A stretch of 64,000 nt of DNA, from assembly GCF_029854705.2 (NCBI RefSeq), contig NZ_CP139035.1:1364001-1428000 (forward strand), given 5' to 3'. The position numbers and the translations under genes were made by a program. The DNA is from Akkermansia sp. N21116. GTDB taxonomy: Bacteria > Verrucomicrobiota > Verrucomicrobiia > Verrucomicrobiales > Akkermansiaceae. Every line of letters begins with the position of its first letter. The first letter of the stretch is position 1. A model generated the notes under the pieces. That model made no database searches. It worked only from the letters and a program-made list of their open reading frames with translations, and had not been told where the DNA came from. Of the stretch, positions 33,667 through 62,429 are shown piece by piece.

Positions 33667-35181
<1,515 letters not shown>

Positions 35182-49484: not shown

Positions 49485-52181
49485 TCAAAATTCATTCCCA
49501 TACGAGAGACCTTGTTCCAGAAAAAGGTAGGGGGGCTTTGGGACTCCGAATTTCGGTGTGACGATTTCGCCGCGCGCCTGAGCCTTTTCGTCTTTGTAGT
49601 CGCCGTAAAAGTTGGAATTCAAATCCATCCACAGAGTAATCCGGTAAAGGTCTGTTGGAGCGAGCTTCAGGTTTTTGTGCCCTTGTTGCAGGAAGGGCAG
49701 CAATTTAGAGGCCTGAGCTCCAACTTCGCCGGGTACTGAGTAGGTGAACTTGTTTTGGTTCCAATAGATGCCATTGCCTCCATGCCGGGTCCATGCCCAT
49801 CTGTGGAGAGTCTCGTATCCATTGCTCCACCCGTGTCTGATGTCGGTACGTTGGGGTTCTCCCTGGGCATTTTGGGTGATGTAGAATGTGTCCCCGTCGA
49901 GACGCGGGGCCTTGGAGACATGTTTGCTGTGGCATCGGACGCAATTTTTATCCAGTACCGGTTGGACGAGCCTTGCGAATGTCATGGGATAGGAACCGTC
50001 CGGCTCGGGAGACAGGAGAGAGGGCTTTCTCCGAAGTGCCAGTGCAGTCCCCTGTCGCAGGCTTTTTGGTGCGGTGAACCGGTTTTCATGGCACCCCATG
50101 CAGGATAACCTTTCTCCGGAATGGGCGTAGGTGGATGACCTCATGGAGTGGATAGCCTGTTTGTTTTCATCCAGAAGCTGGAAGTAAACGTTGACATTGG
50201 TAGGCATGAGGAAGAAGGCGCTTCCGTCTTTTTCCACGGGAACGATGCCGAGGCTTCCGCGCGCCAGGCTTTGATCTCCCATACCAATGTTCGGTTCATT
50301 GGCGAAGACATTGGATTTTGGAAACAGGTTGACGATGCGGATCCATTTTACCTTGACTCCGGGAGGTAGAGGGCGTTCCGTATCGTAAACGTTGAGGATA
50401 AATGTTTCTGCAATATTCGACGGAGCTTCTTCCGGCTTACGGGCATCTGCTGACTGAGTGGTCATGTCGGGGATGATTCCCGGGCGTTTGCGGGGAGTGA
50501 AAGGGATGGGATCGAGGCAGGGAACCTGGGCATCCTGCCAAAGAAGTTCCTTGTTGCCAAAACTGTCAACGAGGTATAGTCCGTAGTCATGACCGTCTCG
50601 GTCATAGACGCAGAGGTAGAAGTCTTCGCTCAATGGCCATGGAGTCCCGAAATGTTCGCCTCCGGAAGCCTGGCCTCTGTCGAATGGGTATCCGGGGCTT
50701 CTTTCGGCTTCCGGAAAATGAATTTCCGGAGTGATTCTTTTGACCTGTGACATAGCTCCATCATCGGGAATCGAGGGATCGACGAGAATCAGCGATCCAT
50801 AGGCAATACCGTGATGAGGTGCGGCAACGGCGACGAGTTTATGACTGTCGGGGACGGAGCGATACCCCAATTCCGCCCAGGGGCGGTTTTCCCGTTTTTC
50901 GGCATAGTTGCCATGGAGGGCTCTCGGGTCTCTTCCATCCGGATAGCATTGCCACAGGTGATGAGCCCCGTCATCGTCACGATCGACATAGTCCCATCGG
51001 GTATAGGCGATCATGCCTTCATTGGTGACGCTGGGCTGCCATTCGTTGGTTTCGTGGAAACTAAGGGGGTAGGCGTCGGTACCGTCCGGTTTCATGGAGT
51101 GCAAGACACCTGCTCCGATCCACCTGGCTCCGCACCTTTGATTGGCTCCTTGTTCGTCGGAAATATAAACGATGCGGCCATTGGGGAGTTCGCATGGATC
51201 AATCGTATTGAAGTTGCCGTCGGTGAGTTGCCGGAGTTCTCCGTTTTTCAAATCCAGGCTGTAGATGTGGTATACCCTGTCCGGTTCCCAGAAGTAATGG
51301 TGGTAGTCTGGGGGACGCCGCATCAGGTCGTCGTAGGTTCCGAAATTGTGCGACCAGTCTTCTTTGCCTGTAACTGGGGTATGGACGGCCTGGGTCCAGG
51401 CAAAATAAAGTTTGTCCGCATCGTAGTTCAATTCCAGTGAGAGGAAAGAACCGTTTTTTAAGGGTTTCCCTTTGTTTTTTCCATGAGAGACCGGTGTTTC
51501 CCGTATCAGGGGGCGGGCAACGGGATGGGAGGAAAATGGCTGCTGCAGGATGAAAGGAGATCCTCCGGGCTTGGCATTGAATCCGAAGTATTGGTCGACG
51601 ATATGGATTTCTCCTTGTCCCTGGCGTTGACTGTAATGAGTCAGGAAGACGATGGCGTCTAATTCTGCAAGCAAGGGATTACGGAAGGACAAGGTCCTTC
51701 TGATGGCACAAAGTTCTTTGAAGGCTTGCAACCTGCCTGTTCGTTCAACAGGGGGGGTGACTGTTTGGCGTCGCTCCCAGTCCTCTAGTTTCTGTTGGAT
51801 TTTGCTGAGATCGTCGGAGTCGGTTTTACCTTGATGTTGTTGCAGGTATTTCAGCAGGGCTTTTGTCCGTCTAAGTACGATGTCGGATGGCGTTTTATCC
51901 GTAGTTCGGTAAACGGAGTCGGGGCGTAGGGCTTCCCGAGTTAGCCTTTCCAAATTGAAATGATTGCTGCCGATCCTGGTAATTTCCTGTTCGAGGTAAG
52001 AAAATTCTTCTTCCCAGTCCTGCTCGGGAGACTTGGAGGAAGGGACTCCTTCGGAGAGGAGACCCGGGATGTGCTCCATGTGTTCCTGAGGTATTTTTGC
52101 CGGGCATAAGGCAGCGAAGCTGCATGTCAGGACGATCCATGCCGAAACGAAGAATGGCTGATGTATGGTTTTCCTATTCAC
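49485..52181 (-). CDS. HzsA-related exported diheme protein
   Basis: 898 residues from GTG 52181 with a signal peptide (about 1-28). The middle (about 270-640) is a beta-propeller-like region with YSLDLKNGELRQLTDGNFNTIDPCELPNGRIVYISDEQG and EWQPSVTNEGMIAYTRWD blades, as in TolB/hydrazine-synthase-alpha proteins. Two c-type heme motifs follow: CMGCH (C694-H698) and CVRCH (C747-H751), the second inside a PVLDKNCVRCHSKH stretch typical of PSCyt-like domains. It resembles the alpha subunit of anammox hydrazine synthase, but no beta or gamma subunit is near, so the reaction is unknown. It must act in the periplasm. It sits alone between the efflux and trp operons. Confidence 0.78.
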   Translation of the reverse strand: MNRKTIHQPFFVSAWIVLTCSFAALCPAKIPQEHMEHIPGLLSEGVPSSKSPEQDWEEEFSYLEQEITRIGSNHFNLERLTREALRPDSVYRTTDKTPSDIVLRRTKALLKYLQQHQGKTDSDDLSKIQQKLEDWERRQTVTPPVERTGRLQAFKELCAIRRTLSFRNPLLAELDAIVFLTHYSQRQGQGEIHIVDQYFGFNAKPGGSPFILQQPFSSHPVARPLIRETPVSHGKNKGKPLKNGSFLSLELNYDADKLYFAWTQAVHTPVTGKEDWSHNFGTYDDLMRRPPDYHHYFWEPDRVYHIYSLDLKNGELRQLTDGNFNTIDPCELPNGRIVYISDEQGANQRCGARWIGAGVLHSMKPDGTDAYPLSFHETNEWQPSVTNEGMIAYTRWDYVDRDDDGAHHLWQCYPDGRDPRALHGNYAEKRENRPWAELGYRSVPDSHKLVAVAAPHHGIAYGSLILVDPSIPDDGAMSQVKRITPEIHFPEAERSPGYPFDRGQASGGEHFGTPWPLSEDFYLCVYDRDGHDYGLYLVDSFGNKELLWQDAQVPCLDPIPFTPRKRPGIIPDMTTQSADARKPEEAPSNIAETFILNVYDTERPLPPGVKVKWIRIVNLFPKSNVFANEPNIGMGDQSLARGSLGIVPVEKDGSAFFLMPTNVNVYFQLLDENKQAIHSMRSSTYAHSGERLSCMGCHENRFTAPKSLRQGTALALRRKPSLLSPEPDGSYPMTFARLVQPVLDKNCVRCHSKHVSKAPRLDGDTFYITQNAQGEPQRTDIRHGWSNGYETLHRWAWTRHGGNGIYWNQNKFTYSVPGEVGAQASKLLPFLQQGHKNLKLAPTDLYRITLWMDLNSNFYGDYKDEKAQARGEIVTPKFGVPKPPYLFLEQGLSYGNEF

Positions 52182-54933: not shown

Positions 54934-55719
54934 TTAGTGAAGGTTGGCGATGAGGGAGGAGAGGTTGTCTCCCGGTTTGCCGTTTTGCATGAGGGCCGTA
55001 CCGATGAGGGCTGCGTGGTAACCGGCTTGTGCGGCGGCGGTGAGGTGGGATGGTTGTTCCATGGCCGAGGCGGCGATCCATATTTCTCCATCCTGGCGGA
55101 ACCGGACGAGATCAAGGCAGATTTGCCGGTCGGTTTTCAGCGTGTCGAGGTCGCGGGCATTGACTTGGATGATGCGCGCTCCGGATTGGCGGGCAAGTAT
55201 CAAGTCTGCTTCATCGAAGATTTCGACAACGGCATGGATGCCGAAGCTTTCAGCTTGTTCCCGGAGGGTCCGCAACAACCCGGCATCCGGAGTAAAACGG
55301 ACGATCAGGAGCATAGCCGAGGCAGCTGTGGCGGCTGTGGCCGTCACTTGCAGAGGATCCATGATGAAGTCTTTGCGCAGGAGTGGAACTCCGGGAGCTG
55401 CCATGCGATCCAGGAATCCCAGTTCTCCTTTGAAGAATTGTTCTTCCGTCAATACCGAAATACATGAAGCTCCGGCGTGGGCGTATTGTTCGGCGACGAG
55501 TTCCGGACTTAACCCTTCGGCGATGATTCCGCGGGAAGGAGAAGCCTGCTTGAACTCCGCGATGATAGCCAGGGACTGGTCGGAAGGAGGAGCCTGCAAG
55601 GCCTGGAGAAAATCCGGACGGCGGCCCTGCCGAGGAACCGGCAAAAGGCCCGCCCGTTCCAGACGGCGGAGTTCCCGGATTTCCGGTTCCTTGGCTTTTT
55701 TGAAGTTATCAAGCAACAT
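54934..55719 (-). CDS. trpC: indole-3-glycerol phosphate synthase with altered active-site motif
   Basis: 261 residues. TIM barrel that closes the indole ring. Preserved catalytic positions: E55 and K57 in IIAEFKQASPSRG, K116 in LLRKDFIMDP, E166 in AVVEIFDE, and N187 in IIQVNARDL. The segment that is almost always SESGI on strand 7 reads AASAM (216-220): the serine (S218) stays but the glutamate is alanine (A217). The frame is intact and the protein full length, so this is not a decay mutation by appearance. It overlaps the end of trpGD by 11 bp and lies 7 bp before trpF. Confidence 0.92.
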   Translation of the reverse strand: MLLDNFKKAKEPEIRELRRLERAGLLPVPRQGRRPDFLQALQAPPSDQSLAIIAEFKQASPSRGIIAEGLSPELVAEQYAHAGASCISVLTEEQFFKGELGFLDRMAAPGVPLLRKDFIMDPLQVTATAATAASAMLLIVRFTPDAGLLRTLREQAESFGIHAVVEIFDEADLILARQSGARIIQVNARDLDTLKTDRQICLDLVRFRQDGEIWIAASAMEQPSHLTAAAQAGYHAALIGTALMQNGKPGDNLSSLIANLH

Positions 55720-57301
55720 GGAGCGGTTTCCTTCCTACGCCGGCTGTAACGGCTTCCCTGGCACGAGCTATGCAGAGGGGCAGGGACTGGTCGTCCTCCA
55801 TCAGGTAGATGGCCAGTCCGAGATTGAGGGCTACCATGTCCTGCATGGGGCGGGTACCTCTGCCTTCGAGCAGCTCGTGGAGGACGCGGACGGCGGCGTC
55901 CTTGGTTCGGACGGTGAGTTCCTCAGGAGTACATGGTGCGATGCCGAAGGAGGAGGGTTCGACCGTGATGTCTTCGCGTTTGCCGTTGCGGACGATGGCT
56001 ACCATGGCCGGACCGATGGGAGTGAGTTCGTCATAGCCTCCGGCCCCGTGGACAACGGCGGCTTTTTCGAAGTGCGACTTTTTGAGGGCTTCGGCGATGA
56101 GACCGACAAGTTCCGGCCGTGCGACTCCCAGCAGGATGTGGGATGGACGGGCCGGATTGAGCAGAGGACCCAGGAGATTGAATATGGTGCGGACTCCCAG
56201 TTCCCTCCGGATGAGACCGACATTGCGGAAGGCCGGGTGGTAGTTCGGAGCGAAGAGGAAAGTGAAGTTACGCTGGGAGAGCATGTCTTTGACTTGATCC
56301 GGAGTGGTGTCAAGGGGAAGCCCCAGAGCTTCAATAGCATCGGCGGAACCGCATGTAGACGAGACGGCTCGGTTACCGTGCTTGATGACTTTGTAACCCA
56401 TACCTGCCATTGTCAAGGCAGTGACGGTGGAGCAGTTGAAGGACGAACGGCCGTCGCCGCCTGTGCCGACGATGTCGATGGCTTTACCTTCGATACCGTT
56501 GACGCGGACGGCACGGTTGAGGCCGATGTTCATGGCGCAGGCTAGTTCCAGAGGTGTTTCTCCTTTCATGCGCAGCCCCATCAGGAAGGAGCCTGCCTGC
56601 GAGGAGGTCATGTGTCCGTCCATCAGGCTGGCAAAGGCGGAGGCGGCTATTTCCGCGCTCAGGTCGTTGCCTTCGGCCAGTGTATCAAGGATGTTCGAGA
56701 CACGGCGTTCCCGGTGCTGATCGGGGAGGATTGTGTTGGGGAAGTTGGCCAGGAGGGTAAGACCTTCCGGAGTCAGGATGGATTCCGGGTGGAACTGGAC
56801 GCCAACCCACGGGCGGTCATTATAGCGGAGAGCCATCACTTCGTTTTCCGGGCCTCGGGCGGTGACGGTGAAACGGGGATTGGGTGCGTTTTCCGGAGAT
56901 TGGACGACAAGAGAGTGGTACCTGCCCACTTTCATCGGATTGGAGATTCCCTCGAACAAGCCCTGTTCATCGTGGTCGATGTCGGAACATTTACCGTGCA
57001 TCACATAGGGGGCGCGGCTGACTTCCGCTCCGGCAAAATGCCCCAGAAGCTGGTGTCCGAGGCAGACTCCGAGTACCGGGATGTGTGCCGGCAATCTCTT
57101 GAGGAATTCCAGGCATAATCCGGCGTTGGCGGGATGGCTGGGTCCTGGAGAAAGGCAGACTTCTGTCAGTTCGGGATCCGTCGCAAGTTCTAGGATACGG
57201 GGGTCGTCGTTGGTGAGGACAACGGGGTTTCGGCCCAGCGTGTAGAATGCCTGGACGAGGTTGTAAGTGAATGAATCGTAGTTATCAATGAGTAGAAACA
57301 T
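55709..57301 (-). CDS. trpGD: fused anthranilate synthase amidotransferase / anthranilate phosphoribosyltransferase
   Basis: 530 residues. N-terminal class I glutamine amidotransferase (about 1-190): nucleophile cysteine in VLGVCLGHQLLGHFAG, with the His-Glu pair in VGVQFHPESILT. It supplies ammonia to TrpE. The C-terminal part (about 200-530) is TrpD, which adds the phosphoribosyl group to anthranilate: DIVGTGGDGRSSFNCST, KHGNRAVSSTCGSAD and NLLGPLLNPARP. The G-D order is the same as in E. coli. ATG overlaps the end of trpE by 17 bp, and its end overlaps trpC by 11 bp, so the operon is very tightly packed. Confidence 0.97.
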   Translation of the reverse strand: MFLLIDNYDSFTYNLVQAFYTLGRNPVVLTNDDPRILELATDPELTEVCLSPGPSHPANAGLCLEFLKRLPAHIPVLGVCLGHQLLGHFAGAEVSRAPYVMHGKCSDIDHDEQGLFEGISNPMKVGRYHSLVVQSPENAPNPRFTVTARGPENEVMALRYNDRPWVGVQFHPESILTPEGLTLLANFPNTILPDQHRERRVSNILDTLAEGNDLSAEIAASAFASLMDGHMTSSQAGSFLMGLRMKGETPLELACAMNIGLNRAVRVNGIEGKAIDIVGTGGDGRSSFNCSTVTALTMAGMGYKVIKHGNRAVSSTCGSADAIEALGLPLDTTPDQVKDMLSQRNFTFLFAPNYHPAFRNVGLIRRELGVRTIFNLLGPLLNPARPSHILLGVARPELVGLIAEALKKSHFEKAAVVHGAGGYDELTPIGPAMVAIVRNGKREDITVEPSSFGIAPCTPEELTVRTKDAAVRVLHELLEGRGTRPMQDMVALNLGLAIYLMEDDQSLPLCIARAREAVTAGVGRKPLHVA

Positions 57302-59347: not shown

Positions 59348-61219
59348 TCAGAATGCGAAATCTTTACCGGCATTAGGGTCTTCGACCTGTTTTTGGACGA
59401 GTACCTCCGCTTGTTCGTGGACGGGGATGGCATGAATGCGTACCGCTTTGACGGGACAGGCAAATTCACAGGCACCGCAGCCGATGCAGTATTGGACGGA
59501 AAGTTTCGGGATACGGATGTTCCAGCGGGATTTTTTCATTTCCAGGGCAGAACCCTGGCAGGTTTTGATACAATCTCCGCAGCCGGTGCATTTGTCGTAG
59601 TCGATGACGATGCGGTCTTTGACGATGGAGACAGCCTTTACCTTGCAGGTATGGGTGCAGTCTCCGCAGAGAATGCAGCTGTCTGCGTCCCAGGAGGGTT
59701 GCTGGATGTCTACCATGTCCAGTGCCTTGGTCGGGCAGTGTTCCGAGCAGGCTCCGCAGTCTGTTTTGTCGCAGGCCGCAATGCATTCGGGCAGGTGTAG
59801 TTCCGCTTTGGCGATGCGCGTATGTTTCTTTTCGGCAAGATCAATCGGGCGGATGGCTCCGGCCGGACAGACATCGGCGCAGGAAGTACAGTCGAAGTTG
59901 CAGAAGCCTTCCGAAAAGTCCATGTGTGGTTTGAGGATGCCGTTCAAACCGTATTCCATGTAGGCGGGACGAAGACATTTGGTCGGGCAGGCTTCCAGAC
60001 AGAGGTGGCAGGCTGTGCAGAAATCGAGGAAGTGCCGGACGCTTTTACTGCCCGGAGGCGAGATGGCATGGGCGGACGGAGCTGCCGGAGAAGAGGCGGT
60101 ACGGGTGAATTTGTTCCCGGTTTTGGTGTTGATGGTCGCAGCGGCACCGAGCAATGTAGCTCCCAGGAAGGCTCGCCTGTTACCGGAGGGCAGGGCGTTC
60201 ATGACTTGTTCCGCGGATGGAGCCTGGGGCTTTTCGGTTTTCTTTCCGGTGCGTCCGCCGGATTTTTCAGACCTGTCCTTCGGAGAACCTTCTTTGCGGG
60301 TACGCCAGGTGAAGCGGTAGTGGATGCCGCGTTCATTGCAGGAGGAAGAGCAGTCAAAACAGTTGACGCAACGGCTGTAATCGATGTCTCCCTTTTTCAA
60401 GTCGATACATTGGGATTTGCAGGACTTCATGCACATGCCGCATTTGATACATGCCGATTTGTCGATGGTCGGACGGAAGGCGGAGTACCGGGAAATCAGG
60501 CCGAGAAAGGCGCCGACGGGGCACAAGGTGTTGCAATAGAGGCGGCCTTTGCGCAGAGCCATGATCCAGATGACAGCCAGCAAGGCCAACGGGATGAATG
60601 TGACGGCTCCGACATAGATCCAGTCCGGAGGGATATGATAAAAGGTGTCGCTGAGTCCGGCGAATACGTTGTTGATTTCAGCCAGTGCCGGGCGGAAGAC
60701 CATGCTCATCATGCGTCCGAACTGGCTGTATGGATCCAGCCACATGAGCAGATTGCCGATGCCGGTTAACATGGAGAGGATAACCAGAGCGAGGACGGTT
60801 CCCCGAATCCAGCGGACGGGAGGAGCGTAGCGGAATGCTTTTGCCTTGCCTGTTTTAAGCATCCGGGAAATGCGGATCAGTACATCCTGGAAAATCCCCA
60901 GCGGACAGAGGAACGAGCAGTATACTCGTCCGAAAAGAAGAGTGGCTGCCAGCAGTCCTGCCAGAATGATAGCGGATGGTACGATGACACCGGAAAGTGT
61001 GCTTTGCAGGGCAGGGGTGAATTGGAACTCGGCCAGCGTATGACCCCAGGAGTTAGGCAGAAGCTGGAAAATGTTTGCGAAGGCAATTGTGAAGAGTCCT
61101 AGAACGATGGCGGCGATGATGATCCTCAATACTCGCAGGAGATAGAAGTGTTTGCCGGCGGGGGCTGGCTTCTTCCGTCGGGACTGTGATGGGGAATTGG
61201 CTGGGGGAATATCGTTCAT
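59348..61219 (-). CDS. membrane-bound polyferredoxin (NapH-like, multi-4Fe-4S)
   Basis: 623 residues. The N-terminal half has about five membrane helices and two cytoplasmic CX3CP motifs (VYCSFLCPLGIFQD, LYCNTLCPVGAFLG) as in NapH/CcoG. It then carries at least eight 4Fe-4S binding motifs, such as CIKCGMCMKSC, CVNCFDC, CTACHLCLEACP, CTSCADVCP, CGACSEHCP, CILCGDC, CTGCGDC and CIGCGACEFACP. In the middle a NRRAFLGATLLGAAAT stretch looks like a Tat signal, so the protein may be a NapH-type part fused to a NapG-type part. It probably passes electrons from the quinone pool or a cytoplasmic donor to an unknown acceptor. A DUF362 gene lies upstream. Confidence 0.88.
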   Translation of the reverse strand: MNDIPPANSPSQSRRKKPAPAGKHFYLLRVLRIIIAAIVLGLFTIAFANIFQLLPNSWGHTLAEFQFTPALQSTLSGVIVPSAIILAGLLAATLLFGRVYCSFLCPLGIFQDVLIRISRMLKTGKAKAFRYAPPVRWIRGTVLALVILSMLTGIGNLLMWLDPYSQFGRMMSMVFRPALAEINNVFAGLSDTFYHIPPDWIYVGAVTFIPLALLAVIWIMALRKGRLYCNTLCPVGAFLGLISRYSAFRPTIDKSACIKCGMCMKSCKSQCIDLKKGDIDYSRCVNCFDCSSSCNERGIHYRFTWRTRKEGSPKDRSEKSGGRTGKKTEKPQAPSAEQVMNALPSGNRRAFLGATLLGAAATINTKTGNKFTRTASSPAAPSAHAISPPGSKSVRHFLDFCTACHLCLEACPTKCLRPAYMEYGLNGILKPHMDFSEGFCNFDCTSCADVCPAGAIRPIDLAEKKHTRIAKAELHLPECIAACDKTDCGACSEHCPTKALDMVDIQQPSWDADSCILCGDCTHTCKVKAVSIVKDRIVIDYDKCTGCGDCIKTCQGSALEMKKSRWNIRIPKLSVQYCIGCGACEFACPVKAVRIHAIPVHEQAEVLVQKQVEDPNAGKDFAF

Positions 61220-61288
61220 GCTCTAAGAGATCAAACACCGGAACGGAACTTGGGTTGCCACGGTGTAGAATTTGTTTGCCAAAATGCG

Positions 61289-61333
61289 ACAGGATATCCA
61301 GTATACCCGAGCCGGGAGGGCCGGATATCCTGT
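61289..61333 (-). repeat. intergenic stem-loop
   Basis: Perfect 11-bp arms ACAGGATATCC and GGATATCCTGT with a 23-base loop that holds a small CCCG/CGGG pairing. It lies between the DUF362 stop and the polyferredoxin start. It has only a short T run beyond it (CGCATTTT), so it is either a weak terminator or an RNA-processing stem that adjusts relative expression. Confidence 0.65.
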
Positions 61334-61353
61334 GCAAGACTGTTCAACGGACG

Positions 61354-62304
61354 TTAGGCCTGTTTGATGCGTTTGATATTGAGTTGGTCAATGTCGCAAC
61401 GGCCATGTCCGGCGGCCGCGGCTAGTTCAACGTGCTTGATGCCGTTTGCCTTATGTCCCAGGATCATGGCGCCAGCCGCATCGCAAGCGACGGGATCGCG
61501 GGAGACGATCAGGGTCTTGGTAGACAGGAGGTCTGTAGCATCCTTGCCCTTGGGACCGTTGCGCATCATCGGGGTAAAAGCATCCAGGATGTTCAGGTCC
61601 GGCTTACGGAGCAGGACTCCGTCGCTGATGCATTGCTGGAGGTCGTTTTTGTGGAAGAATCCGCGATCCCAAACGAGACCCATGACGTTTTTGAGACACC
61701 CTGTCATGACAGCTCCGCCGTGATGCTTGAGAACGGGCATGTTGATGTAGACGTCGGATTCTGCGATAAGCTTGTGGATCTTGGCCTGCTTGAGTTTGAC
61801 GGCATTGGGGGCTTCGCGATCCACGTACATGCTTTCGTCGTTGCCGGGAACCATCTGACCGCCTGCTTTTTCGACAGCTTCCTGAATGCCGCTATTGGCG
61901 TAGGAACGCTGCCATGCATCGCATGTGTGGTCGAAGACGCAAACTTCCTTGGCCCCGGCTTTTTTGCAAAGTTCAACCATGTGGCTGACGAGGCTGGGGT
62001 GGGTGTTGGCTGCCAGATCGGCAGGTTTATCCCATGCGGCGTTAGGTTTGATAACGACCGTTTGTCCCGGTTTGACGAAGGCGGTAATGCCGCCGAGGGC
62101 CTCAAGGGCGGCATCCAGCATGGCGACGCGGTCTTCGCCGCGAACGGCGACGAGATCCGGCGTGCCGGAGGACTTCCCTGCCGGAGCGGACGGGGAAGCC
62201 GGAGTTTCTGCGGCGAACAGGCCGCCGAGATCGATCAGGGAAAATGCCGCACCAACGGCAAATCCCTTTTTAAGGAATTCTCTCCTTTGCAAATCAGCGT
62301 TCAT
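61354..62304 (-). CDS. Tat-exported DUF362-domain protein
   Basis: 316 residues from ATG 62304 (MNADLQRREFLKKGF). The twin-arginine signal RREFLKKGFAVGAAFSLIDLGG predicts folded export. The DUF362 domain follows: VVIKPNAAWDKP, THPSLVSHMVELCKKAGAKEV, YINMPVLKHHGGAVMTGCLKNVMGL and DPVACDAAGAMILG. The domain is common near ferredoxins and redox enzymes but has no proven reaction. Pairing with the downstream polyferredoxin recurs in many anaerobes as far as I know, and suggests a redox unit in the periplasm. The open frame extends to 62355, but that part is not signal-like. Confidence 0.87.
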   Translation of the reverse strand: MNADLQRREFLKKGFAVGAAFSLIDLGGLFAAETPASPSAPAGKSSGTPDLVAVRGEDRVAMLDAALEALGGITAFVKPGQTVVIKPNAAWDKPADLAANTHPSLVSHMVELCKKAGAKEVCVFDHTCDAWQRSYANSGIQEAVEKAGGQMVPGNDESMYVDREAPNAVKLKQAKIHKLIAESDVYINMPVLKHHGGAVMTGCLKNVMGLVWDRGFFHKNDLQQCISDGVLLRKPDLNILDAFTPMMRNGPKGKDATDLLSTKTLIVSRDPVACDAAGAMILGHKANGIKHVELAAAAGHGRCDIDQLNIKRIKQA

Positions 62305-62429
62305 AAAATTGGGGGTGATCGGGGGGTGAAATGCGCTTCTCTCCTTGAAGAGCATCCCTATCCTAAGTTATTTTTAGTTGGAGGCAAGCATTGAGTCTTA
62401 CCTATTTGTGTCTGTATGCAAATTGTGTC

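Follow-up and report, generated by a model that had tools for sequence, protein, structure and literature searches.

A hydrazine synthase alpha-like diheme propeller protein of Akkermansia and its candidate place in a sugar-acting oxidoreductase system

The window analyzed here, a stretch of 64,000 nucleotides from Akkermansia sp. N21116 (contig NZ_CP139035.1, positions 1,364,001 to 1,428,000), carries a gene for a diheme beta-propeller protein resembling HzsA, the alpha subunit of hydrazine synthase (HZS). A first-pass annotation had placed at 49485-52181 an exported, HzsA-like protein of 898 residues with two CXXCH motifs, CMGCH and CVRCH. The open reading frame (ORF) of 898 codons is indeed intact and encodes both motifs; it lies on the minus strand, and the plus strand in the same region is full of stops. 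The gene is under purifying selection because nonsynonymous divergence is well below synonymous divergence in comparison with two Akkermansia relatives (pN 0.24; pS 0.83 to 0.87, which is saturated; pN/pS about 0.28). The protein is probably exported, as predicted from a signal-like N-terminal stretch read by eye. Its features are as follows.

49485..52181, minus strand: gene for the HZS-alpha-like diheme beta-propeller protein, 898 residues, with a GTG start at 52181 and a TGA stop
50472..51665, minus strand: beta-propeller domain, approximately residues 173-570, from the structure model and the TolB/HzsA fold matches
50085..50270, minus strand: match to the HZS_alpha middle domain (PF18582), residues 638-699
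50088..50102, minus strand: heme alpha-I motif CMGCH, residues 694-698, with ENRF after it in place of the YGSY of HzsA
49929..49943, minus strand: heme alpha-II motif CVRCH, residues 747-751, from sequence and alignment
49677..49679, minus strand: codon for His835, a candidate for the distal ligand of heme alpha-II

The fold of the HZS alpha subunit

In a Pfam scan of the window protein, HZS_alpha (PF18582) was the sole family above its cut-off (67.7 versus 26.6 bits). An AlphaFold2 model, built on 49 natural sequences, reached a mean predicted local distance difference test score (pLDDT) of 86.4 and a predicted template modeling score (pTM) of 0.89. Its best match in the PDB was HzsA of Kuenenia stuttgartiensis (5c2v_A; Foldseek E 3.9e-27), which was also the top match by VIA-align (Z 21.4, root mean square deviation 3.1, 570 residues, model residues 173-870), followed by TolB propellers that matched the propeller only (Z 17.2, 260 residues). 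The propeller-like blades and HzsA-like fold proposed in the first-pass annotation are borne out by this comparison: the two proteins share a propeller, a middle heme domain, and a C-terminal heme domain in identical order, at about 20% identity, with the helical N-terminal part of the window protein falling outside the match. Cytochrome c maturation genes, which the same annotation had proposed to look for, are present in the genome as a fused ResB-CcsA ORF of 980 residues and a second CcsA-like protein of 253 residues. Neither outcome named there as refuting the proposal, a genome devoid of maturation genes or a fold unlike HzsA, was thus observed.

Both CXXCH motifs are kept in all 49 aligned window-type proteins, i.e., relatives of the window protein, and the propeller residues R395-W396-D397-Y398 and H456-H457 are likewise invariant in 49 of 49 rows. 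In this propeller motif the window protein differs from HzsA, in which neither R-W-D-Y nor H-H was seen in our own reading of the profile alignment. His751 of the second CXXCH motif is kept in 49/49 rows and His835 in 45/49, the latter lying one column off HzsA His772 in the profile alignment; bis-His ligation of heme alpha-II through His835 is therefore a possible arrangement suggested by the alignment.

Beta-gamma fusions and their co-occurrence with alpha genes

That the protein lacks HZS partners, as first described, holds for the window but not for the genome. No beta or gamma gene lies beside the window alpha as in anammox HZS, nor was a homolog of either found in the 64-kb window, but the genome (3,497,179 bases, one contig) encodes, together with five HZS_alpha proteins, one HzsB-HzsC-like fusion and one partial gamma-like match. 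The fusion, of 607 residues (L014:5141-6964), adjoins an alpha paralog of 1213 residues about 130 kb before the window. Its PDB matches run in chain order from HzsB (E 7.9e-33) to HzsC (E 2.2e-17), both better than MauG, and a profile of 16 beta-gamma proteins spans both the HzsB and HzsC chains (E 4.4e-64 and 5.4e-47). Among NCBIfam families, the HZS beta-gamma fusion of Scalindua, NF052342, ranks first for this protein, with the same domain order, at 123.4 bits against an unreached cut-off of 1250. The gamma part also passes the cut-off of the CCP/MauG diheme family (CCP_MauG, PF03150; 34.5 versus 25.6 bits); it is, however, nearer to HzsC than to MauG (66 versus 21 bits) and, unlike that family, is fused to a propeller.

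A quick tree of 94 alphas placed the window protein within a clade of 62 members (support 1.0) and the four other alphas of its genome in a separate clade of 14 (support 0.92). Two of the genome's alpha genes, very similar to each other, have a GH95-like gene between them (L013 3836-12536), and a catalase gene lies directly beside the genome's gene for an alpha with an FGE-like domain (L014 11648-13102).

Hydrazine synthesis was considered and ruled out by the active-site residues together with scores far under the NCBI HZS family cut-offs. In HzsA, according to PMC12607021, His587 of the first CXXCH motif binds zinc and Tyr591 is the proximal heme ligand. At the Tyr591 position, four residues after the motif His, the window protein has Phe702, and 4 of 49 rows have Tyr; Hagglund et al. 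describe a gap at this position in their HZS homologs (PMC12758564). The window protein scored 32.4 bits against the NCBI HzsA equivalog model NF052339, short of its cut-off of 800. As for gamma, the active-site His144 occurs in 0 of 16 beta-gamma rows in a hand alignment, and neither Cys165 nor Asp168 was found at the aligned place in these proteins by hand reading. At the His144 position, 3 of 16 beta-gammas have the Trp of CCP/MauG; the 607-residue partner, which differs here from NF052342, has Ser. Judged from these sequences, the window protein is not a hydrazine synthase and does not make hydrazine.

HZS was thought to be without relatives outside anammox bacteria until, in 2025, colocalized genes for an HZS-like alpha and a fused beta-gamma were reported from other bacteria, Opitutus terrae included, with the conclusion that these homologs cannot make hydrazine (PMC12758564). 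The system described here is of the same kind: in its clades I-IV from Planctomycetota and Desulfobacterota, too, alpha and fused beta-gamma are encoded together, and the HZS active-site residues are not conserved. By contrast, no sugar pathway, dockerin, or pattern of many alphas to one beta-gamma is described for clades I-IV in the sections covered, and the terms Akkermansia, Verrucomicrob, SUMF1, cellulos, and Clostridi were absent from its main text in a term search.

We then examined the distribution of the two components. Among 76 genomes of the same genus, 17 had HZS_alpha, and these were exactly the ones with beta-gamma. Across 240 Verrucomicrobiota genomes, 45 had both, 4 had alpha only, 4 had beta-gamma only, and 187 had neither (Fisher p 3e-39, with relatives treated as independent); genome G059 has the pair. 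A scan of a genome collection gave 79 loci with window-type relatives, mostly from Planctomycetota, Verrucomicrobiota, Kiritimatiellae, Lentisphaerae, and Hydrogenedentota; record titles point to the rumen or another gut source for several of them. Genome labels of metagenome bins may be wrong, e.g., the Gammaproteobacteria label of L066/L078, and genes at these loci are longest-ORF calls, with several gene names read by eye. Fifty of the window-type loci come from 48 genomes, of which 45 have a beta-gamma somewhere. Within the genus, window-type alphas occur in only 2 of 76 genomes; the alphas nearest to the window protein (65-66% identity) are in G097, listed under the same genus, which has two window-type copies.

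The ratio of alpha to beta-gamma is 5:1 in the genome studied here, 15:1 in G218, and at least 19:1 in G244, G248, and G156. Because alphas outnumber beta-gammas, the data suggest that one beta-gamma core serves many alphas. At least 19 HZS_alpha genes each, with 1-3 beta-gamma fusions, were counted in G244, G248, G156, G234, G328, G334, and G359.

Gene contexts of the HZS-like pair

A shared gene set was observed on a Parabacteroides distasonis plasmid (NZ_OY725748.1; L177 3096-18142), in the window genome (L014 3976-18999), and at L183 (3470-7197). It comprises an HZS-like beta-gamma and alpha, a chorismatase-like protein, a lyxose-isomerase-like cupin predicted to be exported, an orphan of 104-106 residues, DhaK, DhaL, and LsrF. 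On the plasmid, the order is IclR, 'YncE', two hypotheticals, 'SUMF1', CcsA, a hypothetical, DhaK, DhaL, LsrF, and a WD40 protein, 'YncE' being the annotation of the beta-gamma and 'SUMF1' that of the alpha. Around its 1213-residue alpha, the window genome has the same set minus IclR and CcsA, with identities to Parabacteroides of 75% for LsrF, 72% for DhaK, 57% for a hypothetical of 232-252 residues, and 60% for the 106-residue protein; whole or partial sets also occur on Aureibacter plasmids. A signal-like N-terminus was read by eye in the 232-252-residue hypothetical, whose family has matches among D-lyxose/D-mannose isomerases (7nzo, E 1.5e-23; 2y0o, E 2.7e-21). The LsrF of the cluster has true LsrF as a match (E 2.4e-104). 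RidA/chorismatase-like proteins are encoded by the first hypothetical gene in the Parabacteroides cluster and by its relatives, and the 106-residue protein had no match in Pfam or the PDB. Of the 76 genus genomes, two carry the cupin isomerase, and they are also the two with a window-type alpha; since the two genomes are related, the co-occurrence may be one event. In G097, the isomerase, 106-residue protein, DhaK, DhaL, and LsrF genes are consecutive, and at L078 a gap of 66 bp separates the end of the isomerase gene from a window-type alpha downstream.

Among 90 alphas scanned for domains, F5/8C was found on 22, NPCBM on 8, and CBM6, CBM35, and Laminin_G_3 on one each, along with FGE-like domains on 8. 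In Ruminiclostridium papyrosolvens, an operon (L114 7974-14645) combines CcmF with a window-type alpha and with a beta-gamma carrying RicinB lectin and Dockerin_1 domains, both above cut-off. The CcmF/alpha/beta-gamma operon was found in 4 of 11 family genomes searched; the remaining three operons (L174, L175, L176) have ends that look dockerin-like by eye, and these predicted domains indicate that a c-type heme protein may reside on the cellulosome. On a Phocaeicola massiliensis plasmid (L178 3-11682), an alpha-FGE gene, identified by Pfam, ends a locus with SusC/SusD-like genes named by eye.

Neighbor clustering at 82 window-type loci revealed no universal neighbor or recurring operon, with sulfatases in 10 and beta-gamma in 9. 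At the 17 loci with beta-gamma, where 80 of 95 proteins were surveyed and the remainder dropped mainly as probable antisense overlaps, xylose-isomerase-like TIM barrels numbered 5, the rest being scattered; a RidA/chorismatase-like gene was present at 8 of these 17 loci.

In the window itself, the genes upstream of the alpha are trpE, fused trpG-trpD, trpC, trpF, trpB, and trpA. On its downstream side, an RND membrane-fusion protein is encoded together with two RND pumps and an efflux protein of the outer membrane. All of these genes share the minus strand; those of the trp operon and of the RND pumps were named by reading their sequences. The trp operon was rejected as a functional context. 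Its adjacency through trpA looks incidental because both window-type copies in the nearest relative genome are sited elsewhere, and no further window gene was seen beside them. Also observed in the window were a 530-residue fused TrpG-TrpD frame (55709-57301, read by eye), a 16S rRNA gene at 33667-35178 (C1:1397667-1399178 in the genome), and a multi-ferredoxin NapH-like membrane protein beside a DUF362 protein (59348-62355), possibly a redox pair.

Candidate function and alternative explanations

The reading we favor, with confidence just short of even, is that the window gene encodes a standalone alpha of an HZS-fold alpha/beta-gamma c-type heme system, in which it would provide substrate recognition for a sugar or glycan oxidoreductase. 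Its partner outside the cytoplasm would be the one HzsB-HzsC-like fusion of the genome, which joins a propeller to a diheme CCP/MauG-like domain. Together they would form a four-heme oxidoreductase, the alpha recognizing the substrate and the beta-gamma serving as the redox core common to several alphas. The substrate, selected by the exported alpha, would most likely be a sugar or a glycan-derived sugar, and the hemes of the two proteins would draw electrons from it or donate electrons to it. In the module encoded elsewhere in the genome (cupin, 106-residue protein, DhaK, DhaL, and LsrF), the exported lyxose-isomerase-like cupin would isomerize the product, which after uptake would be phosphorylated by DhaKL and cleaved by LsrF to a triose phosphate and an acyl unit.

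Several observations weigh against this reading. The neighbors of the window gene are a trp operon and an RND efflux set, and the Pfam scan found no carbohydrate module on the window protein. A beta-gamma match was present in the flank of only 10 of the 79 window-type loci, two of them doubtful, with many flanks ending at contig ends, and the 17 genus genomes with the pair are related, hence not independent. In G244, where 78 proteins from 13 alpha regions (beta-gamma gene included) were compared with 103 of 111 control-region proteins over the 25 commonest families, sulfatases accounted for 3 of 78 versus 0 of 103 (p = 0.08, not significant), a weak excess in flanks of otherwise mixed content.

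The isolation of the window gene, and the absence of beta-gamma from the flanks covered at most window-type loci, would fit a lone diheme protein for electron transfer or heme storage that never meets a beta-gamma fusion. We consider this unlikely, given that the 45 of 48 genomes with both compare with 49 of the 240 genomes in the phylum sample and with 4 of the 191 among them that lack alpha, and that a strictly conserved propeller motif seems unlike a mere electron carrier. Peroxidase or MauG-type chemistry, with H2O2 used for peroxide detoxification or for protein or glycan modification, appears quite improbable to us: it draws on the CCP_MauG match of the gamma part and on the catalase gene (a Pfam match) adjoining an alpha paralog, but the Trp shared by CCP/MauG and clades I-III of PMC12758564 is at the aligned position in only those 3 of 16 beta-gammas, and Ruminiclostridium is described as anaerobic, so that peroxide would be an unlikely everyday substrate.

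We give very little credence to nitrogen chemistry, i.e., conversion of nitric oxide (NO), hydroxylamine, or ammonia as in HZS. The fold and the subunit set are common with HZS, and the RidA/chorismatase-like third gene could hydrolyze an imine, but neither the Tyr591 position nor the active-site residues of gamma are conserved, the scores fall far under the NCBI cut-offs, and Hagglund et al. take the same view of other homologs. Of the roles raised in the first-pass annotation, NO/ammonia chemistry is accordingly disfavored, whereas sugar oxidation is favored, because gene contexts that include sugar and polysaccharide breakdown point that way and the HZS active-site residues examined are lacking. 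It is also highly unlikely that the protein is a polysaccharide lyase-like propeller with structural or vestigial hemes. Oligogalacturonate lyase 3pe7 is among the Foldseek matches (rank 38, E 6.2e-7), though not among the 50 VIA-align matches listed, and the corresponding Pfam family weakly matches an alpha paralog (E 0.0058); however, both CXXCH motifs are kept throughout the 49 aligned proteins, and heme-ligation genes stand in the Ruminiclostridium and Parabacteroides operons.

Three aspects of the sugar-acting system favored here are apparently new: the Akkermansia/Parabacteroides clusters joining the HZS-like pair to a lyxose-isomerase-like cupin, DhaK, DhaL, LsrF, and a chorismatase-like protein; the Ruminiclostridium operon with dockerin and lectin domains on beta-gamma; and genomes in which alphas outnumber beta-gammas by at least 15 to 1. 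In the open-licence literature, covered by titles and abstract beginnings, we recognized no description of HZS-like systems in Akkermansia, Bacteroidota, or cellulosomes, PMC12758564 aside for other taxa. The words 'cytochrome' and 'heme' were not found in the main text of one Ruminiclostridium genome paper and two secretome/proteome papers, and in one paper on the genus Akkermansia, cytochrome bd was the only such mention.

More broadly, it is possible, if doubtful, that HZS-fold alpha/beta-gamma proteins form a widespread class of exported four-heme sugar- or glycan-oxidizing enzymes, in which a large set of exchangeable alphas would read the substrate for one redox core. Such enzymes would serve mucin-dwelling Akkermansia, gut Bacteroidota, and cellulosomes and would feed an isomerase/dihydroxyacetone-type kinase/LsrF aldolase/thiolase pathway, with anammox HZS being a specialized offshoot of a sugar-oxidizing ancestor. 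The hypothesis is testable in culturable species. If true, it would reveal a gut-bacterial catabolic cluster hidden under the names 'YncE family protein' and 'SUMF1/EgtB/PvdO family nonheme iron enzyme' and a new type of redox step in the use of glycans by anaerobes, with a heme component on cellulosomes as one instance, and exported, sugar-acting heme relatives would offer an origin for the key anammox enzyme.

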